DNA from: Aeriscardovia aeriphila
GTDB taxonomy: Bacteria; Actinomycetota; Actinomycetes; Actinomycetales; Bifidobacteriaceae
NCBI GenBank assembly: GCA_949290445.1
Contig: CASERW010000015.1
Location: forward strand, 1 to 42,847
Reading direction: 5' to 3'
Length of the DNA: 42,847 nucleotides
In this document: piece after piece, positions 3,383 through 16,328 of the stretch
Position numbering within the stretch: the stretch's first letter is position 1
Layout of the letters: each line of letters begins with the position of its first letter
Program-made: the position numbers and the translations under genes
The notes under the pieces: generated by a model
Databases searched by the model: none
What the model was told of the DNA's origin: nothing
What the model saw: only the letters and a program-made list of their open reading frames with translations

Positions 3383-4699
3383 ATGCACGGTGAACACATT
3401 CAACAACAACCACGATCACGCACCTACTTGGGTGCAGTGATCGCAGCTTTCGTAGTGCTCATCGTGAGCCTTGCCCTCATCTTCACTTTCAATCCAGTTC
3501 GCGCCCTGTTCACGCATCAGCTTGCGGCAACAAGCGTAGAGAAGCCAGTGAAGAAGGCGCTCAGTAAAAAGAGTGAAGTTCCGGCTGTACACGTGCCTCA
3601 CCATGGCAAAACCGCAAACTGCAGCGCAACCGACTGCGTCTCCCTGCTCGTCAACGGCGATCTGCTCTTCCACGCAGGCTTGTGGAATCAATATGCGCGC
3701 AACCCTTCGGCAACAGACGGAAGCGCCTTCGATTTCACCGACCTCTTCGCTTCGCTCAAACCCTACATTGATGCTTCTGATATTGCCGTATGCGAGTTTG
3801 AAACCCCAATCGCTCATCGCGGTGGCCCTTACAGCGCCTACCCGATTTTTGCTATCCCGCCGGAAGTTGTTGATGCAGCAGCCAAAGTAGGTTACCAAGG
3901 GTGCACGCATGCGACGAACCATTCGTGGGATCAGCATGCTGACGGCATCGCACTCTTGCGCCAAGAAATGCAAGATCACGGTTTGCAACAAGTCGGCTCA
4001 TACACGAGCCAAGACCAGATCAAGCCAATGATTCTGCACAGCGCAGATGGTGGCCCGAGCATCGCCGTTATCACTGGTACGGTTTCCGTCAATGGTTTAG
4101 TGCCAGATGAGGATTGGATGATTGACCGTTTGCGTGGTCGAGAAGACCCTCACCATGCGGCGGATATTCAACGCATCGTCGACCAAGCAAAAATGGCGCG
4201 GGAAGAAGGTGCTGACCTGGTCGTCTTCGCCATGCATTCCGTGCAAGAATACATTGACTACGCCGATAGCTGGCAGGTGGACTCGGCTCATGAGCTTGCC
4301 GACTTGGGTATTTTCGACCTGATCTATGGTGCGGGAAGCCACAGCGTGCAGCCGATTGAGAATTATAACAACACATGGATTATCTACGGCACGGGCAACA
4401 CAGTGACGGAGAGTGCACCACCAGAGCGCGTTTCCAACAATCAAGGTATGACCGCTCGTATTACTTTCGCAGGCTACCAGGGTGATCGTGCATCCTGGCA
4501 TGTGCAAAGCATTGACTGGGTGGGAAGTGCCAATATGCGAGCAGGACGCTACCACTGGTGTTCGCTGGGAGAAGACCAGCCCGATGGACCGTGCTGGTCT
4601 GCTCAACAAGACACTGCGGTAAGAAACCGCTTGCAATCAGTGATCTACTCCAAGGGTGCTGACCCTAATGTTGTGCGCCCATGGAAGTTGAACTCGTAA
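3383..4699 (+). CDS. CapA-family metallophosphatase, membrane anchored
   Basis: 438 residues. One N-terminal membrane helix (about residues 11-32, AVIAAFVVLIVSLALIF) is followed by a Lys-rich linker and an extracytoplasmic catalytic domain. CapA motifs are visible: LLVNGDLLFH (metal-binding Asp), CEFETPIAH, THATNHSWDQHADG (the family's N-H-x-D-x-G core), VFAMHSVQEY and GAGSHSVQP. CapA/PgsA proteins are calcineurin-like phosphoesterases associated with poly-gamma-glutamate capsule assembly, but no pgsB, pgsC or pgsE lies nearby, so a general cell-envelope role is all that can be inferred. The start was chosen because AGAGGTGG lies at the right distance. A strong bidirectional terminator follows the gene. 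Confidence 0.85.
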   Translation: MHGEHIQQQPRSRTYLGAVIAAFVVLIVSLALIFTFNPVRALFTHQLAATSVEKPVKKALSKKSEVPAVHVPHHGKTANCSATDCVSLLVNGDLLFHAGLWNQYARNPSATDGSAFDFTDLFASLKPYIDASDIAVCEFETPIAHRGGPYSAYPIFAIPPEVVDAAAKVGYQGCTHATNHSWDQHADGIALLRQEMQDHGLQQVGSYTSQDQIKPMILHSADGGPSIAVITGTVSVNGLVPDEDWMIDRLRGREDPHHAADIQRIVDQAKMAREEGADLVVFAMHSVQEYIDYADSWQVDSAHELADLGIFDLIYGAGSHSVQPIENYNNTWIIYGTGNTVTESAPPERVSNNQGMTARITFAGYQGDRASWHVQSIDWVGSANMRAGRYHWCSLGEDQPDGPCWSAQQDTAVRNRLQSVIYSKGADPNVVRPWKLNS

Positions 4700-9078: not shown

Positions 9079-10188
9079 CTATTCCGAGAGATCTGGATGT
9101 TCAGAAGAGTCGGTTTCCTCGGTCGAAGAAAGCTCGGCGGAAGATTCAGCGGACTGATAATCTGGAGCGTTCTGCGACGAGTGACGGGAAGTGAAACGCT
9201 TCCAGCGAGCCTGACGTGCAGCCTTCTTCTCCTCCTTACGAGCCAGCGTCTCAACGGCTGAGGAGTGAGTTTCCAAGTCAAAAGCAGAGTCGAGCTCAGC
9301 GTCCAAGCCCAGCTGCTCAGCAGTTTTCAGAGGCTCACGCCAACCAGCGATGTCCTCAGCACTCAGCGGAGCATCAACACTCTTGCCGTAGATGCGTTCG
9401 TACGCCTCAACTTTCTCGCGGTAATCCTGAGCGCGCATGAAGGAAGAATTCTCCTGCACCGACAGTTCAGGGTCAGGGTAGATCGGGTCAAGAATGTGAA
9501 TGATCGTGCGCGTCTTCATAAACTGCTCGTTATCAGCAGACTTCTTATCGCGCATCTCCACAAAGCACGGAACAATCGGCACGCCGGCGCGAGCAGCGAA
9601 ATCAAAAGCGCCATGCTTCTCGGGGCGAGGACGACGATAGTTAAACCACATTTCCTCTTCCGGGTAGATCAGCACAAAACGGCCGCGAGAGAGCAGCTGG
9701 TCGATGATGGCCGGGAACTGACGCGAGAGGTATACGTGGCTCTTGGTGATCGGAATGGTGTCGTAATACTTCAGGAAGAAGCCTAAGAATCCGGGCATCG
9801 CAAAATTCGTATCCTGGCTGATGATGTAGGTACGACGATGGCCAGAGTGCCGCATAGCAGCCGTCACCGTCATATTCTCCAAAGGGGAGAAGTGGTTCGA
9901 TGTGACGATAGCGCCAGAGCGGATGGAACGCACCTTCTCCAGGCCCACGTACTTGGTACGCCAGTTGAGCAGGTCCGCCAGAGCGTGAACGATGGTGCGA
10001 GCAGCCCAGTTTTTCGCGGTATAACGCCAGGTTCTCGTGTAAGCGAGGTGACGCTCAACAAGGGAAAGGCGGGCATCGCGGTCAGTAATTTTCGGGTCGT
10101 TGATTTCGACCTTACGGTTCATCTCACCCAGGGCAAAATTGCGCTGAATATTGTCAATTACCGCTTGCTTATCTCCACCGACGATCAC
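9079..10188 (-). CDS. PlsC-like lysophospholipid acyltransferase
   Basis: The start is placed at GTG 10188: AAAGGAG lies at 10200-10194, five bases before it, whereas the upstream TTG at 10206 would put that site inside the coding region. About 369 residues. Block 1 reads NHFSPLEN, i.e. HxxxxE instead of the usual HxxxxD; block 3 is YPEEEMWFNYRRPRP in place of FPEGTR; block 4 is VPIVPC. This variant pattern belongs to a recognised branch of PlsC-domain proteins that transfer acyl groups to lysophospholipid or glycolipid acceptors at the membrane. A charged tail of about 80 residues rich in Ala, Ser and Glu ends the protein and contains APDYQSA, encoded over the TGATAATCT word at 9155. It is last in a minus-strand cluster with two GT8 transferases. 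Confidence 0.8.
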   Translation of the reverse strand: MIVGGDKQAVIDNIQRNFALGEMNRKVEINDPKITDRDARLSLVERHLAYTRTWRYTAKNWAARTIVHALADLLNWRTKYVGLEKVRSIRSGAIVTSNHFSPLENMTVTAAMRHSGHRRTYIISQDTNFAMPGFLGFFLKYYDTIPITKSHVYLSRQFPAIIDQLLSRGRFVLIYPEEEMWFNYRRPRPEKHGAFDFAARAGVPIVPCFVEMRDKKSADNEQFMKTRTIIHILDPIYPDPELSVQENSSFMRAQDYREKVEAYERIYGKSVDAPLSAEDIAGWREPLKTAEQLGLDAELDSAFDLETHSSAVETLARKEEKKAARQARWKRFTSRHSSQNAPDYQSAESSAELSSTEETDSSEHPDLSE

Positions 10189-10301
10189 GATGGCTCCTTT
10201 CCTCAAGCGAATACGAAGTTACGGGCTGCTGGACGGCTGTGAGGTTGCGCAGTGCTGAGCGTTGCGCGCGCGTACGACGGGTACGTCTGGCGCAACTCGG
10301 C

Positions 10302-11297
10302 TCACATCTTCACGCGAACCTGAACACCATCTTTAATCAACGAAGCAAAAGTGGGGTTCGCATGGTCAGCAATCGCCCACGCGAGATTCATCAAACGACC
10401 CTTCTTCAACTCGTCCAGCTCACGGTTGATAGGAGGGAAGTTCTGCAAACGCAACAACAGCTCTTCATAATTCGGGCTCTGAGCCGCATACTTCCACCAA
10501 ATATCAGCACGCAGAGCATCGGGATAATTCCACGGCTTGTTAAACAGGTTGAAGTGAATAATGCACGGGTCAGCAACATCATCAGGGCCATTTGCGCTCA
10601 ACACGTTGTAGCGAGGGTCGAGCAGCAGAATCGTGTCATGAAGCATGGCGTTGATGTAATCCTGGTCGACGGCGGCGAGCTCAGGGTGGTAGGTGTTGAG
10701 CAGCTCAGTAAACTGCTGAACAAAGTTGATTTCGCGCAAACGCTCGCAGTCCATGAGCAGAACACCAGAATTGATGTAACCATGAGTGTCGAAACCATGC
10801 TCAGCCTCGCAGTAGCGGATCAGCGCCTCCTGCACATCCATGGTCTGGTCGTGCACGCCGCCCATGAGGTTACCCTGAAGGTCGATGTCGAATAGCTCAG
10901 CCACATCATCGGTGATTACCGTATCGGTGTCGATATAGATGGCGCGGTCAATATCAGGGAAAAGCTGGGGGATGAACAGACGGAAGTAGAGGGTTGTCGT
11001 CTTGTAGTCGGCAACCAAAGTGTTGTTATCTGAATTGACCAAGTCATTGATCTTGTCAGAAATATGGCACATTTCCACCGTGGCATTGGGCTGGGAGAGG
11101 CCGGCGAGCTGATGTTGATGCTCATGGCTCATACCGCGTTCCAAAACGATGATGTGGTAGCGGCGCAGCGGGTTGGAGTTAGCCAACAGAGAGGTGATTG
11201 CCACAGACAGGTACGGTGCGTAGGTTTCGTCAGCGGCAAAGAAAACGGTAACCGTAGGCTGGGTGTGAGTGACAGAGGTTGCGTTTGGATCACTCAT
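10302..11297 (-). CDS. GT8 family glycosyltransferase
   Basis: 331 residues. The N-terminal TVFFAADETYAPYLSVAITSLL is the nucleotide-sugar-binding start of family 8 glycosyltransferases; AIYIDTDTVI contains the metal-binding DxD motif; HGYINSGVLLMD and VDQDYINAML are the usual acceptor-side motifs; IIHFNLFNKPWNY is the C-terminal H-x-x-x-x-K-PW motif. The enzyme transfers a sugar from a UDP- or similar donor; donor and acceptor are not readable. Its start overlaps the preceding GT8 gene by eight bases (ATGAGTGA), so translation is probably coupled. Confidence 0.9.
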   Translation of the reverse strand: MSDPNATSVTHTQPTVTVFFAADETYAPYLSVAITSLLANSNPLRRYHIIVLERGMSHEHQHQLAGLSQPNATVEMCHISDKINDLVNSDNNTLVADYKTTTLYFRLFIPQLFPDIDRAIYIDTDTVITDDVAELFDIDLQGNLMGGVHDQTMDVQEALIRYCEAEHGFDTHGYINSGVLLMDCERLREINFVQQFTELLNTYHPELAAVDQDYINAMLHDTILLLDPRYNVLSANGPDDVADPCIIHFNLFNKPWNYPDALRADIWWKYAAQSPNYEELLLRLQNFPPINRELDELKKGRLMNLAWAIADHANPTFASLIKDGVQVRVKM

Positions 11298-12351
11298 TTT
11301 CGTCGATCCTTTCCGGATAGTCAGTTGAACTGTTGATAGGACTGTTGATAGGACTGTTCATCGAATGGTCAAGAGGAGGTTCAAACGAACGGTCAGGAGA
11401 ACGGTCAGTTGAACCAGATGGTGAACCAGCTACTGAACTAGTTACAGGGCTCACTTGCACCTGCGCGGCTCGATGCTGCTCGAATTCCTCGAGCAAGTCG
11501 TCATACTCGTGCAAATGCAAGGTAGAATGCACTTCCTCAACCTGCCATGGCTTCACACTCACCGCATGGAACCACGGGAAGAGGCGGAAGGACGTTGTAA
11601 AGTGCTGGAAAACAGTGTTGGAGTGGAAGCGACGCTGGTCGTTATAGCGGTGGGACGCAATCACCTTGGAGCGTACGCACTTGTTGAGAGCTGACTGGTC
11701 AGGCATGAACATCCACTTGTTTTCGCACATCTCCCTGCAGCGTGCGAAAAGCCCTGTGCGGCGAATTTCCGCCATATTGAGCAGCAGCACTCCGGAGTTG
11801 AAATAGTCGGGGAGCATATGCGAGTAGCGCTGACGGAAGAACCAGCGGCCGTAATAATCCAAAACTGCGGCGAGCTCCACCTTGTCGAGGTTTTGGTTGT
11901 AAAACTGCTCGAAAGGCTTGTGGCACACAATATCGGTGTCCAAGTAGAGAATACGGTCAGGAATGCATTCCAGTTCATCGGCGTACAAGCGCAACGTGCA
12001 CAGCGGAGTGAAGCGCGTCTCCATATTGGCAACAGGCGGCTGGGCTTCGAAAAGGTCGGTAATATCGACGAGGCTCAAGCTTCCCTGAGGGTTATGCTTG
12101 CTAATCAGCTCGCGCACCGGCTCGACGTCGCTTTCCCGCAGCGGCAGGAACTCGCGCGTTGAGGTGCTCACTTTTGCTGTCAGAACGAACACATGCAGTG
12201 GCGTCCTCGTGTGCTTGGTGAGGGAGAGAACCGAAATCAGCAGACCATCGCGCATATTGCGGTCACCGCAGTAGAGCAGATTGATACTCGACGCTGGCTT
12301 GCTGTGCGGCGAAGTTTTGGCTCGTCGTCTCGTGTGTGAGCGTTCGAGCAT
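11290..12351 (-). CDS. GT8 family glycosyltransferase with repetitive tail
   Basis: 353 residues. NLLYCGDRNMRDGLLISVLSL opens the GT8 domain, RILYLDTDIVCHKPF contains the DxD motif, YFNSGVLLLNMAE and MFMPDQSALNKC follow, and HLHEYDDLLEEF closes it. The last 55 or so residues are low complexity: repeated SPDRS and SPINSPINS units, encoded by short tandem DNA repeats around 11320-11420 (ACTGTTGATAGG twice). It lacks the KPW motif seen in its neighbour. It precedes and overlaps the second GT8 gene, so the two proteins are made together and may act in sequence on one acceptor. Confidence 0.88.
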   Translation of the reverse strand: MLERSHTRRRAKTSPHSKPASSINLLYCGDRNMRDGLLISVLSLTKHTRTPLHVFVLTAKVSTSTREFLPLRESDVEPVRELISKHNPQGSLSLVDITDLFEAQPPVANMETRFTPLCTLRLYADELECIPDRILYLDTDIVCHKPFEQFYNQNLDKVELAAVLDYYGRWFFRQRYSHMLPDYFNSGVLLLNMAEIRRTGLFARCREMCENKWMFMPDQSALNKCVRSKVIASHRYNDQRRFHSNTVFQHFTTSFRLFPWFHAVSVKPWQVEEVHSTLHLHEYDDLLEEFEQHRAAQVQVSPVTSSVAGSPSGSTDRSPDRSFEPPLDHSMNSPINSPINSSTDYPERIDENE

Positions 12352-12549
12352 GCTTCACCTCACTTTACTGTTGCGCACGTTGTTGTGCGGCGTATGCCCT
12401 GCTGTGCTCTCAGGTTTCGCTGAGAACACGGTGCCCGGCTCTGTTGTGCGTTTGGGCGTCGTGGCACAAACACTGATAATCTTCCGGTATTCTACGAGGT
12501 GAAAGACGAGAGGCAGCGCGACCCACCAAGCCAGGTTGACAAAGGGCTT

Positions 12550-13368
12550 TTATTTGTCTGCGTGTTGGGCATCGGTTTGCTCTTGGTAAATCACGTACTG
12601 GTAATCCGACAGTTCTGCCCGCTTGCGCAGAGTTGCGATAATTTGTGCGTGCAGGCTCTCCTTTTGCTCCTGCTCGCTTGCCTCAAGATTATCAGGGTAA
12701 AAAGGTCCATCAATGTACACGGTGATGGCGGGGCGCGGGTTGAGCCAGGCGAAACGTCTGCGGTGGAAGGTTGTGGTGGCAACGAAACTCGGGGTTTTAA
12801 AGCGCACAGGGTAACGCATGGAAGTAGAGGAGAAGTCGCGGATCTTGGTATACCACGGCCAGACGTGAGCTTCCGGGTAGATCATGAAGGTAGTGCCATC
12901 CTCGACCAAATGCGTCATGGCAATCTTAAAGTTTTTTCTTTCCTCAAGCGTGTGGGGAACAGCAAGAAAATCAAGCTGGTGCAACATCGGGCCGATCACC
13001 GGAATGCCGATATTTCCCAGAGCGACGACCGCGGAAATATGGTGAGGGTAGTTCATCAAAACGCTTAACGCGATGTCTCCACCAGCAAGTGTGTGATTGC
13101 CATAAATGAAGGAGCTCTTGGCGTGAATTTTGCGCAAAGTACGCTTCATCTGCCGCTTGCCTTTAATGCGGATGCCGAGCCATAGATAGCCGTAGACGCA
13201 ACAGATGAGGTAGGCGAGGAAGTAGATGATGTGGTAGAAGCAGCGTTGCGCGAGCCCGTGGCCGTGATAGTAGCGGTAGCCTGCGGGAAGGTGATGGTTT
13301 TGGTCGGCGGACTTCACGAAATCTTGCGTCGTGGAGGTGTAGGTCACAACCTGAGGAGCTCGTTTCAT
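12550..13368 (-). CDS. PlsC-like acyltransferase
   Basis: 272 residues. A membrane helix near residues 44-64 (CFYHIIYFLAYLICCVYGYLW) precedes the catalytic region. Block 1 is YGNHTLAGGD (five rather than four residues between His and Asp), block 3 is IYPEAHVWPWYTK, again a PE-x-x-W variant. The family acylates lysophospholipids or related acceptors on the inner membrane face. No ribosome site precedes the ATG at 13368; instead a TATAGT box ends eight bases upstream, so a leaderless mRNA is likely. A TGATAATCT word lies in its 3' part (12686-12694) and another 70 bp after the stop (12474-12482). Confidence 0.78.
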   Translation of the reverse strand: MKRAPQVVTYTSTTQDFVKSADQNHHLPAGYRYYHGHGLAQRCFYHIIYFLAYLICCVYGYLWLGIRIKGKRQMKRTLRKIHAKSSFIYGNHTLAGGDIALSVLMNYPHHISAVVALGNIGIPVIGPMLHQLDFLAVPHTLEERKNFKIAMTHLVEDGTTFMIYPEAHVWPWYTKIRDFSSTSMRYPVRFKTPSFVATTTFHRRRFAWLNPRPAITVYIDGPFYPDNLEASEQEQKESLHAQIIATLRKRAELSDYQYVIYQEQTDAQHADK

Positions 13369-15641: not shown

Positions 15642-16328
15642 ATGGACGACGAAACACAGCGCGCTGCTTTGCGTTTGCAGGAAAGAGCGGAGAAAGCAGA
15701 GCAGAGTACGCAAGGTGTTGAGTCCACACTCACCCCTCACTATCGCCTCTCGCTGGCCGACCAAAAGAAGCAGAGCTCGCTATCCACGGCAGCGAAGATC
15801 GGTGTTTTCGTGGCAATCGTCTTCGACATGATCGTTCCCTACGGCATGGGTCGAGCCTGGGCGCTGAGCAAGACGGGCCAGGTGATTCGCGTCTTCCAAC
15901 ATATTGATCCTCGCGGTTGGGCAGTGCTCGCCTGGCTTTCTGTCACCCTGCTGTGCGCCTGCTTGGGCCGGGCGATGAGCGCGACTCGTCGTGCTGGCTG
16001 GCTGTGGCTGGCCTTCGCGAATTTCTTCGTCGTCCAACTTCTCGCCGGGGTGGGGCTGCTCAAATGGAATTTCTGGTATTCCACGTGGGTGGTTTACGAT
16101 GAATCCTCCGTTTTTGCCGACGCCATCGACTTAGGCCTGATGGCATCCTTGTTTGGCTTGGTGGTTTTCGCCGTTGTTTTCGTGTTGCTGCTGGTGATGG
16201 TCAAGCGCGATTCTCCACTCAACATTTTGTTGCAAGGCTGGATGGCTTTTACCCTGTTTTTGCTGGTGGAAATGGCGATGCTGATAGGCATGCTCTTCGG
16301 TGGCATCTCTATTTTTGCGAACCTCTAA
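15642..16328 (+). CDS. Hypothetical five-helix membrane protein
   Basis: 228 residues. A polar, coiled-coil-prone N-terminus (about 45 residues) is followed by five hydrophobic segments: IGVFVAIVFDMIV, WAVLAWLSVTLLCACLG, WLWLAFANFFVVQLLAGVGLL, LMASLFGLVVFAVVFVLLLVMV and GWMAFTLFLLVEMAMLIGMLF. No known motif is recognised. GAGGAGGGGAG lies five bases before the ATG. It starts 35 bp after pulA and may share its transcript; a function cannot be assigned. Confidence 0.8.
   Translation: MDDETQRAALRLQERAEKAEQSTQGVESTLTPHYRLSLADQKKQSSLSTAAKIGVFVAIVFDMIVPYGMGRAWALSKTGQVIRVFQHIDPRGWAVLAWLSVTLLCACLGRAMSATRRAGWLWLAFANFFVVQLLAGVGLLKWNFWYSTWVVYDESSVFADAIDLGLMASLFGLVVFAVVFVLLLVMVKRDSPLNILLQGWMAFTLFLLVEMAMLIGMLFGGISIFANL

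Follow-up and report, generated by a model that had tools for sequence, protein, structure and literature searches.

The nearest described relatives of the genes considered here surround horA on plasmids of beer-spoiling lactic acid bacteria, and their homologues stand together in a 42,847 nucleotide (nt) stretch of Aeriscardovia aeriphila contig CASERW010000015.1 (assembly GCA_949290445.1; hereafter the window), as a set of two predicted PlsC-fold acyltransferases (AT-A and AT-B) and two GT8 glycosyltransferases (GT1 and GT2). The horA-surrounding genes are among the most transcribed on plasmid pPECL-8 in beer (PMC3765258), and the same surroundings have been described for P. damnosus (PMC4394401); in the available parts of these two papers they are called phospholipid or cell-wall genes, with function not tested. 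The available part of a third paper lists two 'lipopolysaccharide biosynthesis glycosyltransferases', a 'phospholipid-glycerol acyltransferase' and a '1-acyl-sn-glycerol-3-phosphate acyltransferase' as exclusive to plasmids of beer-spoiling L. brevis, in 6 of 7 spoiling strains, with a HorA-like protein found in non-spoilers as well (PMC6533708). These four are, in our reading, the cassette, since six L. brevis plasmid records fall in the accession series of that paper's six strains (four checked against the record or the paper's listing, a fifth, CP031202, in its accession list, and the sixth matched by number only). Among the literature matches listed, mention of the gene set was confined to the surroundings of horA and no account of it as a widespread pathway was found, nor, by title or abstract, a published GT8-acyltransferase glycolipid cassette; PMC9967799 and PMC11427514 yielded nothing useful.

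On pPECL-8 and pUCCLBBS124_D, all of GT1, AT-A, GT2 and AT-B were recovered by the cassette profiles, and the four homologues are likewise together in the window. The difference is horA itself, which on brewery plasmids lies inside the cassette (GT1, horA on the opposite strand, AT-A, GT2, AT-B) but is absent from the 198 nt that separate AT-A from GT1 in the window. A plasmid search with a Lactobacillus AT-A returned 18 records (Pediococcus 7, Levilactobacillus 6, Loigolactobacillus 2, and one each from Roseburia, Secundilactobacillus and Fructilactobacillus), and 11 of these regions, ten lactic acid bacterial and that of Roseburia, were examined. Directly upstream of AT-A, on the opposite strand, nine of the ten lactic acid bacterial regions carry a 1752 nt ABC transporter gene, beyond which a glycosyltransferase gene follows in eight of the nine (none is listed for P. 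inopinatus, whose gene table is incomplete); the tenth, on the TMW 1.2112 plasmid, meets the record edge upstream of AT-A, so that any horA and GT1 there would fall outside the record. AT-B is missing from the gene list of one region, again at a record edge; in another, on the P. damnosus plasmid pL21533-5 (L123, 6218-7085), its annotation is split in two. The Roseburia region shows the four genes in their plain order. The presence of HorA seems to be a brewery addition to the cassette; a HorA-like transporter as a general partner was considered and rejected, the 25 best HorA-like proteins listed from the AT-A loci being 27-33% identical and none of them lying inside a cassette.

For the single enzymes, the comparison is with PlsC, PatA and LpxM on one side and LgtC on the other. 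Structural alignment of T. maritima PlsC with AT-A (VIA-align) gave Z 16.4 and a root-mean-square deviation of 4.0 over 198 aligned residues, yet PlsC has FPEGTRS where the cassette enzymes have motifs of the YPEAHVW and YPEQEMW types, together with HX5D in AT-A and HX4D or HX4E in AT-B. PatA and LpxM, which acylate sugar-bearing lipids, share the superfamily fold with AT-A (Z 11.2 and 9.8, at 5-11% identity in the structural alignments), and we know of no GT8 partners for either. LgtC has the GT8 profile and the DXD and DQ motifs in common with GT1 and GT2, where these motifs align; LgtC-type enzymes lie in a lipopolysaccharide cluster, whereas GT1 and GT2 are a recurring pair accompanied by two acyltransferases.

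That this gene set is real, conserved and functionally linked is nearly certain. We further propose, with a probability of roughly 60%, that it is one mobile cassette for an acylated alpha-diglycosyl membrane lipid, which would be made at the cytoplasmic face on a non-phosphorylated acceptor, would alter the membrane and, beside horA, would help hop tolerance.

Table 1. Cassette genes of A. aeriphila, with positions in the window
Gene	Product	Coordinates	Strand	Details
AT-A	PlsC-fold acyltransferase (predicted fold)	12550..13368	-	272 aa; HX5D (H92, D98), YPEAHVW
GT1	GT8 glycosyltransferase	11290..12351	-	353 aa; DTD and KPW motifs; PF01501
GT2	GT8 glycosyltransferase	10302..11297	-	331 aa; DTD and HFNLFNKPW motifs; PF01501
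AT-B	PlsC-fold acyltransferase (predicted fold)	9079..10173	-	HX4E, YPEEEMW; start revised to GTG 10173

Linkage of the four genes

The first-pass annotation of the window had described four minus-strand genes in a row at 9079-13368, two of them sugar transferases with overlapping frames, and the open reading frames confirm this: transcription runs from 13368 to 9079 in the order AT-A, GT1, GT2, AT-B, and the end of GT1 overlaps the start of GT2, both GT8 by Pfam, by 8 nt. AT-B was listed as a frame of 375 amino acids (aa) at 9079-10206 with a TTG start at 10206, but its true start is most likely the GTG at 10173 (364 aa), because the family consensus begins MIIG; AAGGAG sits immediately upstream of this GTG. 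AT-A shares 97% identity with a protein from A. aeriphila LMG 21773, of the family Bifidobacteriaceae. The genome assembly of the window (1.52 Mb, 71 contigs, 84% complete) contains just two GT8 genes, both in the cassette. Base composition was set aside as a clue to foreign origin, with a GC content of 53.6% in the cassette and 55.6% in the window being uninformative.

Relatives were collected in a scan with AT-A alone, which gave 90 confirmed relatives; all locus counts refer to the best 80, and those same AT-A loci supplied the sequences for the four role profiles. The loci span Lactobacillales, Clostridia, Spirochaetes, Saccharibacteria and others, and the cassette is also present in an Acholeplasmatales metagenome-assembled genome. 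All four genes are found at 53 of the 80 loci, three at 8, two at 5 and AT-A only at 14, some of these last being located at contig ends. The window's order, ATA-GT1-GT2-ATB, recurs at 38 of the 53 complete loci, and the remainder comprise GT1-GT2-ATB-ATA (5), divergent arrangements (4) and duplicates or fusions (6), with fusions that join GT2 to AT-B in L061 and L068 and GT1 to GT2 in L017 and L074. Five Saccharibacteria (L081, L084, L087, L089, L094) have GT1-ATA-GT2, which appears to be a shorter version of the cassette.

Searches of whole genomes for AT-B (12 genomes, with L024 and L059 as positive controls) and for GT8 (a partly different 12, with L059 as control) placed GT1-GT2-ATB away from AT-A in the L044 genome, a second and complete cassette in that of L088 and a strong AT-B match in that of L034. 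GT8 genes were spread over two contigs in each of the L019, L027 and L079 genomes; two stood together in that of L090, on a contig different from that of its sole AT-B-profile match, and the L053 genome had a single long GT8 frame of 636 aa. The set is usually complete and sometimes split, and AT-A relatives also occur outside it. As a separate observation, in L038, L044 and L047, where AT-A stands alone, its gene overlaps that of an alpha/beta hydrolase (identified by profile in L038), possibly a lipase partner.

Within the Bifidobacteriaceae, AT-A is found in 9 of 121 genomes and AT-B, at high score, in the identical nine, with one additional weak match (E 3.6e-4). GT8 genes occur in 22 of the 121, and both types are present in all nine AT-A genomes; of the 13 others, twelve show nothing but long frames of a different kind (633-1091 aa), and G031 holds five GT8 frames of shorter length with neither AT-A nor AT-B. 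Three genomes of one genus keep ATB-ATA-GT1 together with GT2 apart, and in two genomes related to each other, L104 and L106, the separated GT2 adjoins a gene for a protein of >900 aa that is surface-like by eye. Comparison of gene order in relatives does not make separate conservation of each gene the general picture, with exceptions in the 14 lone AT-A loci and in at least four genomes that have an AT-A relative and no GT8 match, and the functional link that the first-pass annotation had suggested is borne out by the 53 complete loci together with the all-or-nothing pattern in the family genomes.

Tree distances of the four proteins also correlate over 60 loci (rho 0.61-0.74, against a maximum of 0.24 in 300 permutations), in a comparison that excluded frames of 480 aa or more, loci without any one of the four genes, and L110. 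In the four trees the nearest relatives from outside the family are mostly Lactobacillales or Lachnospiraceae (L049, L076, L096-L098), and for GT1 of L102 the distance to L049 is even smaller than that to its own family. Among 396 genomes sampled from the phylum, the window's own included, just two others had AT-A matches, both weak (24 and 28% identity). The tree placement would fit gain by transfer, possibly from the Lactobacillales or Lachnospiraceae side.

Predicted folds and motifs

The sequence-based assignment of both glycosyltransferases to GT8 is firm: PF01501 (cut-off 24.3 bits) is matched by GT2 at 152.3 bits (2.4e-44) and by GT1 at 69.8 bits (3.4e-19), and both have DXD and the C-terminal H...KPW, functional motifs of GT8 enzymes, as expected of members of the CAZy family. 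Solved relatives of the pair include LgtC and WbbM, and PHROGs gave a single weak match, for GT2, to a family of unknown function.

The acyltransferases are placed by fold more readily than by profile. AT-B matches PF01553 (E 5.7e-16) and AT-A falls under its cut-off (13 bits vs 23; E 0.092), and a sequence search of the PDB left AT-B alone unmatched and gave the AT-A and AT-B profiles one match each, with E above 0.2. The AlphaFold model of AT-A (mean pLDDT 93.3) matches solved structures of PlsC, GPAT, PatA and LpxM, and that predicted for AT-B (mean pLDDT 85.3) matches PlsC, which is its top Foldseek match, as well as PatA and GPATs; by these model-based matches both proteins belong to the PlsC-fold (LPLAT) superfamily. 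They fall outside PlsC/AGPAT proper, given the HX5D of AT-A, the HX4E of the window's AT-B, the lack of FPEGTRS in both, and TIGR00530 (cut-off 102.95), which AT-B approaches only to 37.3 bits and AT-A does not match. Residues 39-64 of the AT-A model form a long helix that is hydrophobic by eye.

The off-consensus motifs that had been picked out at first pass are present as described, NHTLAGGD with YPEAHVW in AT-A and NHFSPLE with YPEEEMW in AT-B; the feature said to be common to both, PE-x-x-W, was miswritten and is PE-x-x-x-W. This PExxxW occurs in 91 of 91 AT-A and 67 of 68 AT-B sequences (two fragments judged by eye), with the YPEAHLW form also present in the AT-A family and the YPEQEMW type in that of AT-B. 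The scan for AT-A used short AT-A peptides including EAHVWPWY and VYIDGPFY, so that the search itself accounts for part of the YPEAHVW conservation; neither HX5D nor any partner gene entered the scan. H92 and D98 are invariant across 47 aligned sequences, in HX5D spacing, and the 91 AT-A sequences, the window's included, have NHX5D (86) or SHX5D (4, from Saccharibacteria), the last being a fragment without the region. The 68 AT-B sequences divide into 50 with HX4D and 18 with HX4E, among them all nine from Bifidobacteriaceae. L110, on the contig of L016, was excluded from these counts.

Two further PF01553 proteins of the window genome have HX4D with HPEGTRS or FPEGTVS. The EGTR part of the PlsC motif has a phosphate-binding role, and it is this portion that is missing from AT-A and AT-B. 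Because it is lost, and because both enzymes have a tryptophan near its place, the sequences suggest that the acceptor may be a sugar or other neutral group.

The proposed lipid and its alternatives

From the gene set, its linkage, the predicted folds and motifs and the linkage to horA, we infer the following substrates, order of steps, product and effects on membrane and hop tolerance. GT1 and GT2, as retaining GT8 enzymes, would draw on nucleotide sugars to attach two hexoses, one after the other; AT-A and AT-B would each transfer one fatty acyl chain, from acyl-acyl carrier protein or acyl-coenzyme A (acyl-CoA), to a hydroxyl on the glycolipid's sugar or glycerol, a non-phosphorylated acceptor. 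The product would change the permeability or charge of the membrane, and in beer-spoiling lactic acid bacteria the cassette, joined with horA, would aid hop-acid tolerance. Synthesis of an acylated glycolipid by the cassette is likely, and a small glycolipid that stays in the membrane where it is made is suggested because there are two GT8 enzymes and two acyltransferases and no polymerase or fixed export gene was identified with them in the partly annotated flanks.

Flanking genes were surveyed with most clusters lacking a profile annotation and several names given by eye. A TetR regulator lies 0-9 nt upstream in five Clostridia loci (the one scanned, from L068, scored best against FadR, yet under the cut-off), and an AMP-binding gene lies 245-267 nt from GT1 in four Saccharibacteria loci (the one scanned, from L059, resembles long-chain acyl-CoA ligases); a TetR of fatty-acid type and an acyl-CoA-ligase-like gene near some cassettes point to fatty acyl chains. 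AT-A relatives without GT8 genes beside them adjoin a GT4 gene (L048, and L085 by similarity) or a gene of the GT2 glycosyltransferase family (L093), and these neighbours, in the L048 and L093 genomes that have no GT8 match, support a possible action of AT-A relatives on glycosylated acceptors. Broad-cluster ABC transporters lie within 2.5 kb of the cassette at 21 loci. No weight was given to a helix-turn-helix regulator at 10 loci or to HIT, AlaS, MATE and phosphodiesterase look-alikes named by eye, which come mainly from one related Oscillospiraceae/Ruminococcus group (HIT-like genes also occur elsewhere).

The first-pass annotation had left the product as an acylated glycolipid or a lipoglycan; the former fits the folds and the GT4 and GT2-family neighbours of the orphan AT-A relatives, and the latter is less supported. 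For a lipoglycan, the cassette would decorate a polymer, either lipoteichoic or of the cell wall: the GT8 enzymes would glycosylate a lipid-linked intermediate, and the acyltransferases would anchor or acylate it. We consider this unlikely, even though LgtC and WbbM, two of the solved GT8 relatives, are surface-glycan enzymes, Bifidobacteria carry lipoglycan, and a MATE-like gene downstream in 10 related loci and L031 is a possible exporter there: no recurring polymerase or teichoic-acid gene was identified beside the cassette in flanks that are only partly annotated, and the Acholeplasmatales, where the cassette also occurs, are a group without a cell wall.

It is rather improbable that the acyltransferases remodel a glycolipid supplied by other enzymes while GT1 and GT2 lengthen an ordinary glycosyl-diacylglycerol. 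Eight of the nine AT-A-positive family genomes do have 2-5 GT4 matches (the ninth, that of the incomplete window genome, has none), and the GT4 beside the AT-A relative of L048 weakly matches the IagA/BgsA and monoglucosyl-diacylglycerol synthase models, but the flanking-gene survey showed no GT4 gene constantly joined to the four genes, and GT1 and GT2 could build the lipid alone. The cassette as a replacement for GT4 glycolipid synthases was also considered and rejected, given the GT4 genes of the other eight cassette-positive genomes and the 84% completeness of the one assembly without a match. Least probable is that the acyltransferases are alternative phospholipid enzymes (PlsB/PlsC-like) with the GT8 genes as unrelated riders, for although public annotations label AT-A relatives 1-acyl-sn-glycerol-3-phosphate acyltransferases and PlsC is the top fold match of both, FPEGTRS is missing, AT-A lacks HX4D, the TIGR00530 cut-off is unreached, the genome retains two other PF01553 genes with canonical motifs, and the GT8 genes stay with the acyltransferases in 53 of 80 loci, with GT2 and AT-B fused twice.

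Several points weigh against the acylated glycolipid cassette as we propose it. Packing in the window is loose, with gaps of 198 nt between AT-A and GT1 and 128 nt between GT2 and AT-B. AT-A is without neighbouring partners at 14 of 80 loci; AT-B is not adjacent in the five Saccharibacteria, nor GT2, at the level of the locus, in three Lactobacillus loci (L039, L045, L060). The genome search found no GT8 match in the L048, L086, L092 and L093 genomes, where an AT-A relative is present, which implies that AT-A relatives can serve other pathways. The tree correlation partly mirrors common species history and cannot tell joint transfer from shared descent, and for both acyltransferases PlsC itself is the closest match by fold. 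No lipid, enzyme assay or mutant for the cassette was found in the literature examined. The link between cassette and hops is an association: in the parts of the papers available, pPECL-8 is at about double copy number in beer, alongside the rise in transcripts (PMC3765258), and among 20 P. damnosus strains horA itself showed no significant relation to spoilage (PMC4814128).

More tentatively, and with a good deal of doubt, the product may belong to a class of membrane glycolipid not yet described, which two GT8 enzymes and two PlsC-fold enzymes with rewritten motifs (one with an HX5D dyad) would assemble with no phosphorylated acceptor, and the cassette may be a transferable envelope-hardening module, spread over at least Actinomycetota, Bacillota, Spirochaetota and Saccharibacteria, that was joined to horA on brewery plasmids for hop-acid resistance. 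What had been a side note of brewing genomics, the genes around horA, becomes a pathway of four defined genes, related to sets in gut bacteria, lactobacilli and Saccharibacteria, and strains that have the cassette can be compared with strains that lack it to look for its product. The results suggest another role for two gene families whose annotation is phospholipid acyltransferase; if a new acylated glycolipid is indeed made, there would be named genes for a bacterial lipid type that possibly affects acid and hop tolerance and contact with the host.

Two other genes of the window were noted, both on the plus strand. A predicted protein of 228 aa at 15642-16328, membrane-like by eye and without a match in Pfam or NCBIfam, is also found near the cassette in L016 and L017, and a CapA-like protein is encoded at 3383-4699 (PF09587 PGA_cap, 7.2e-54).

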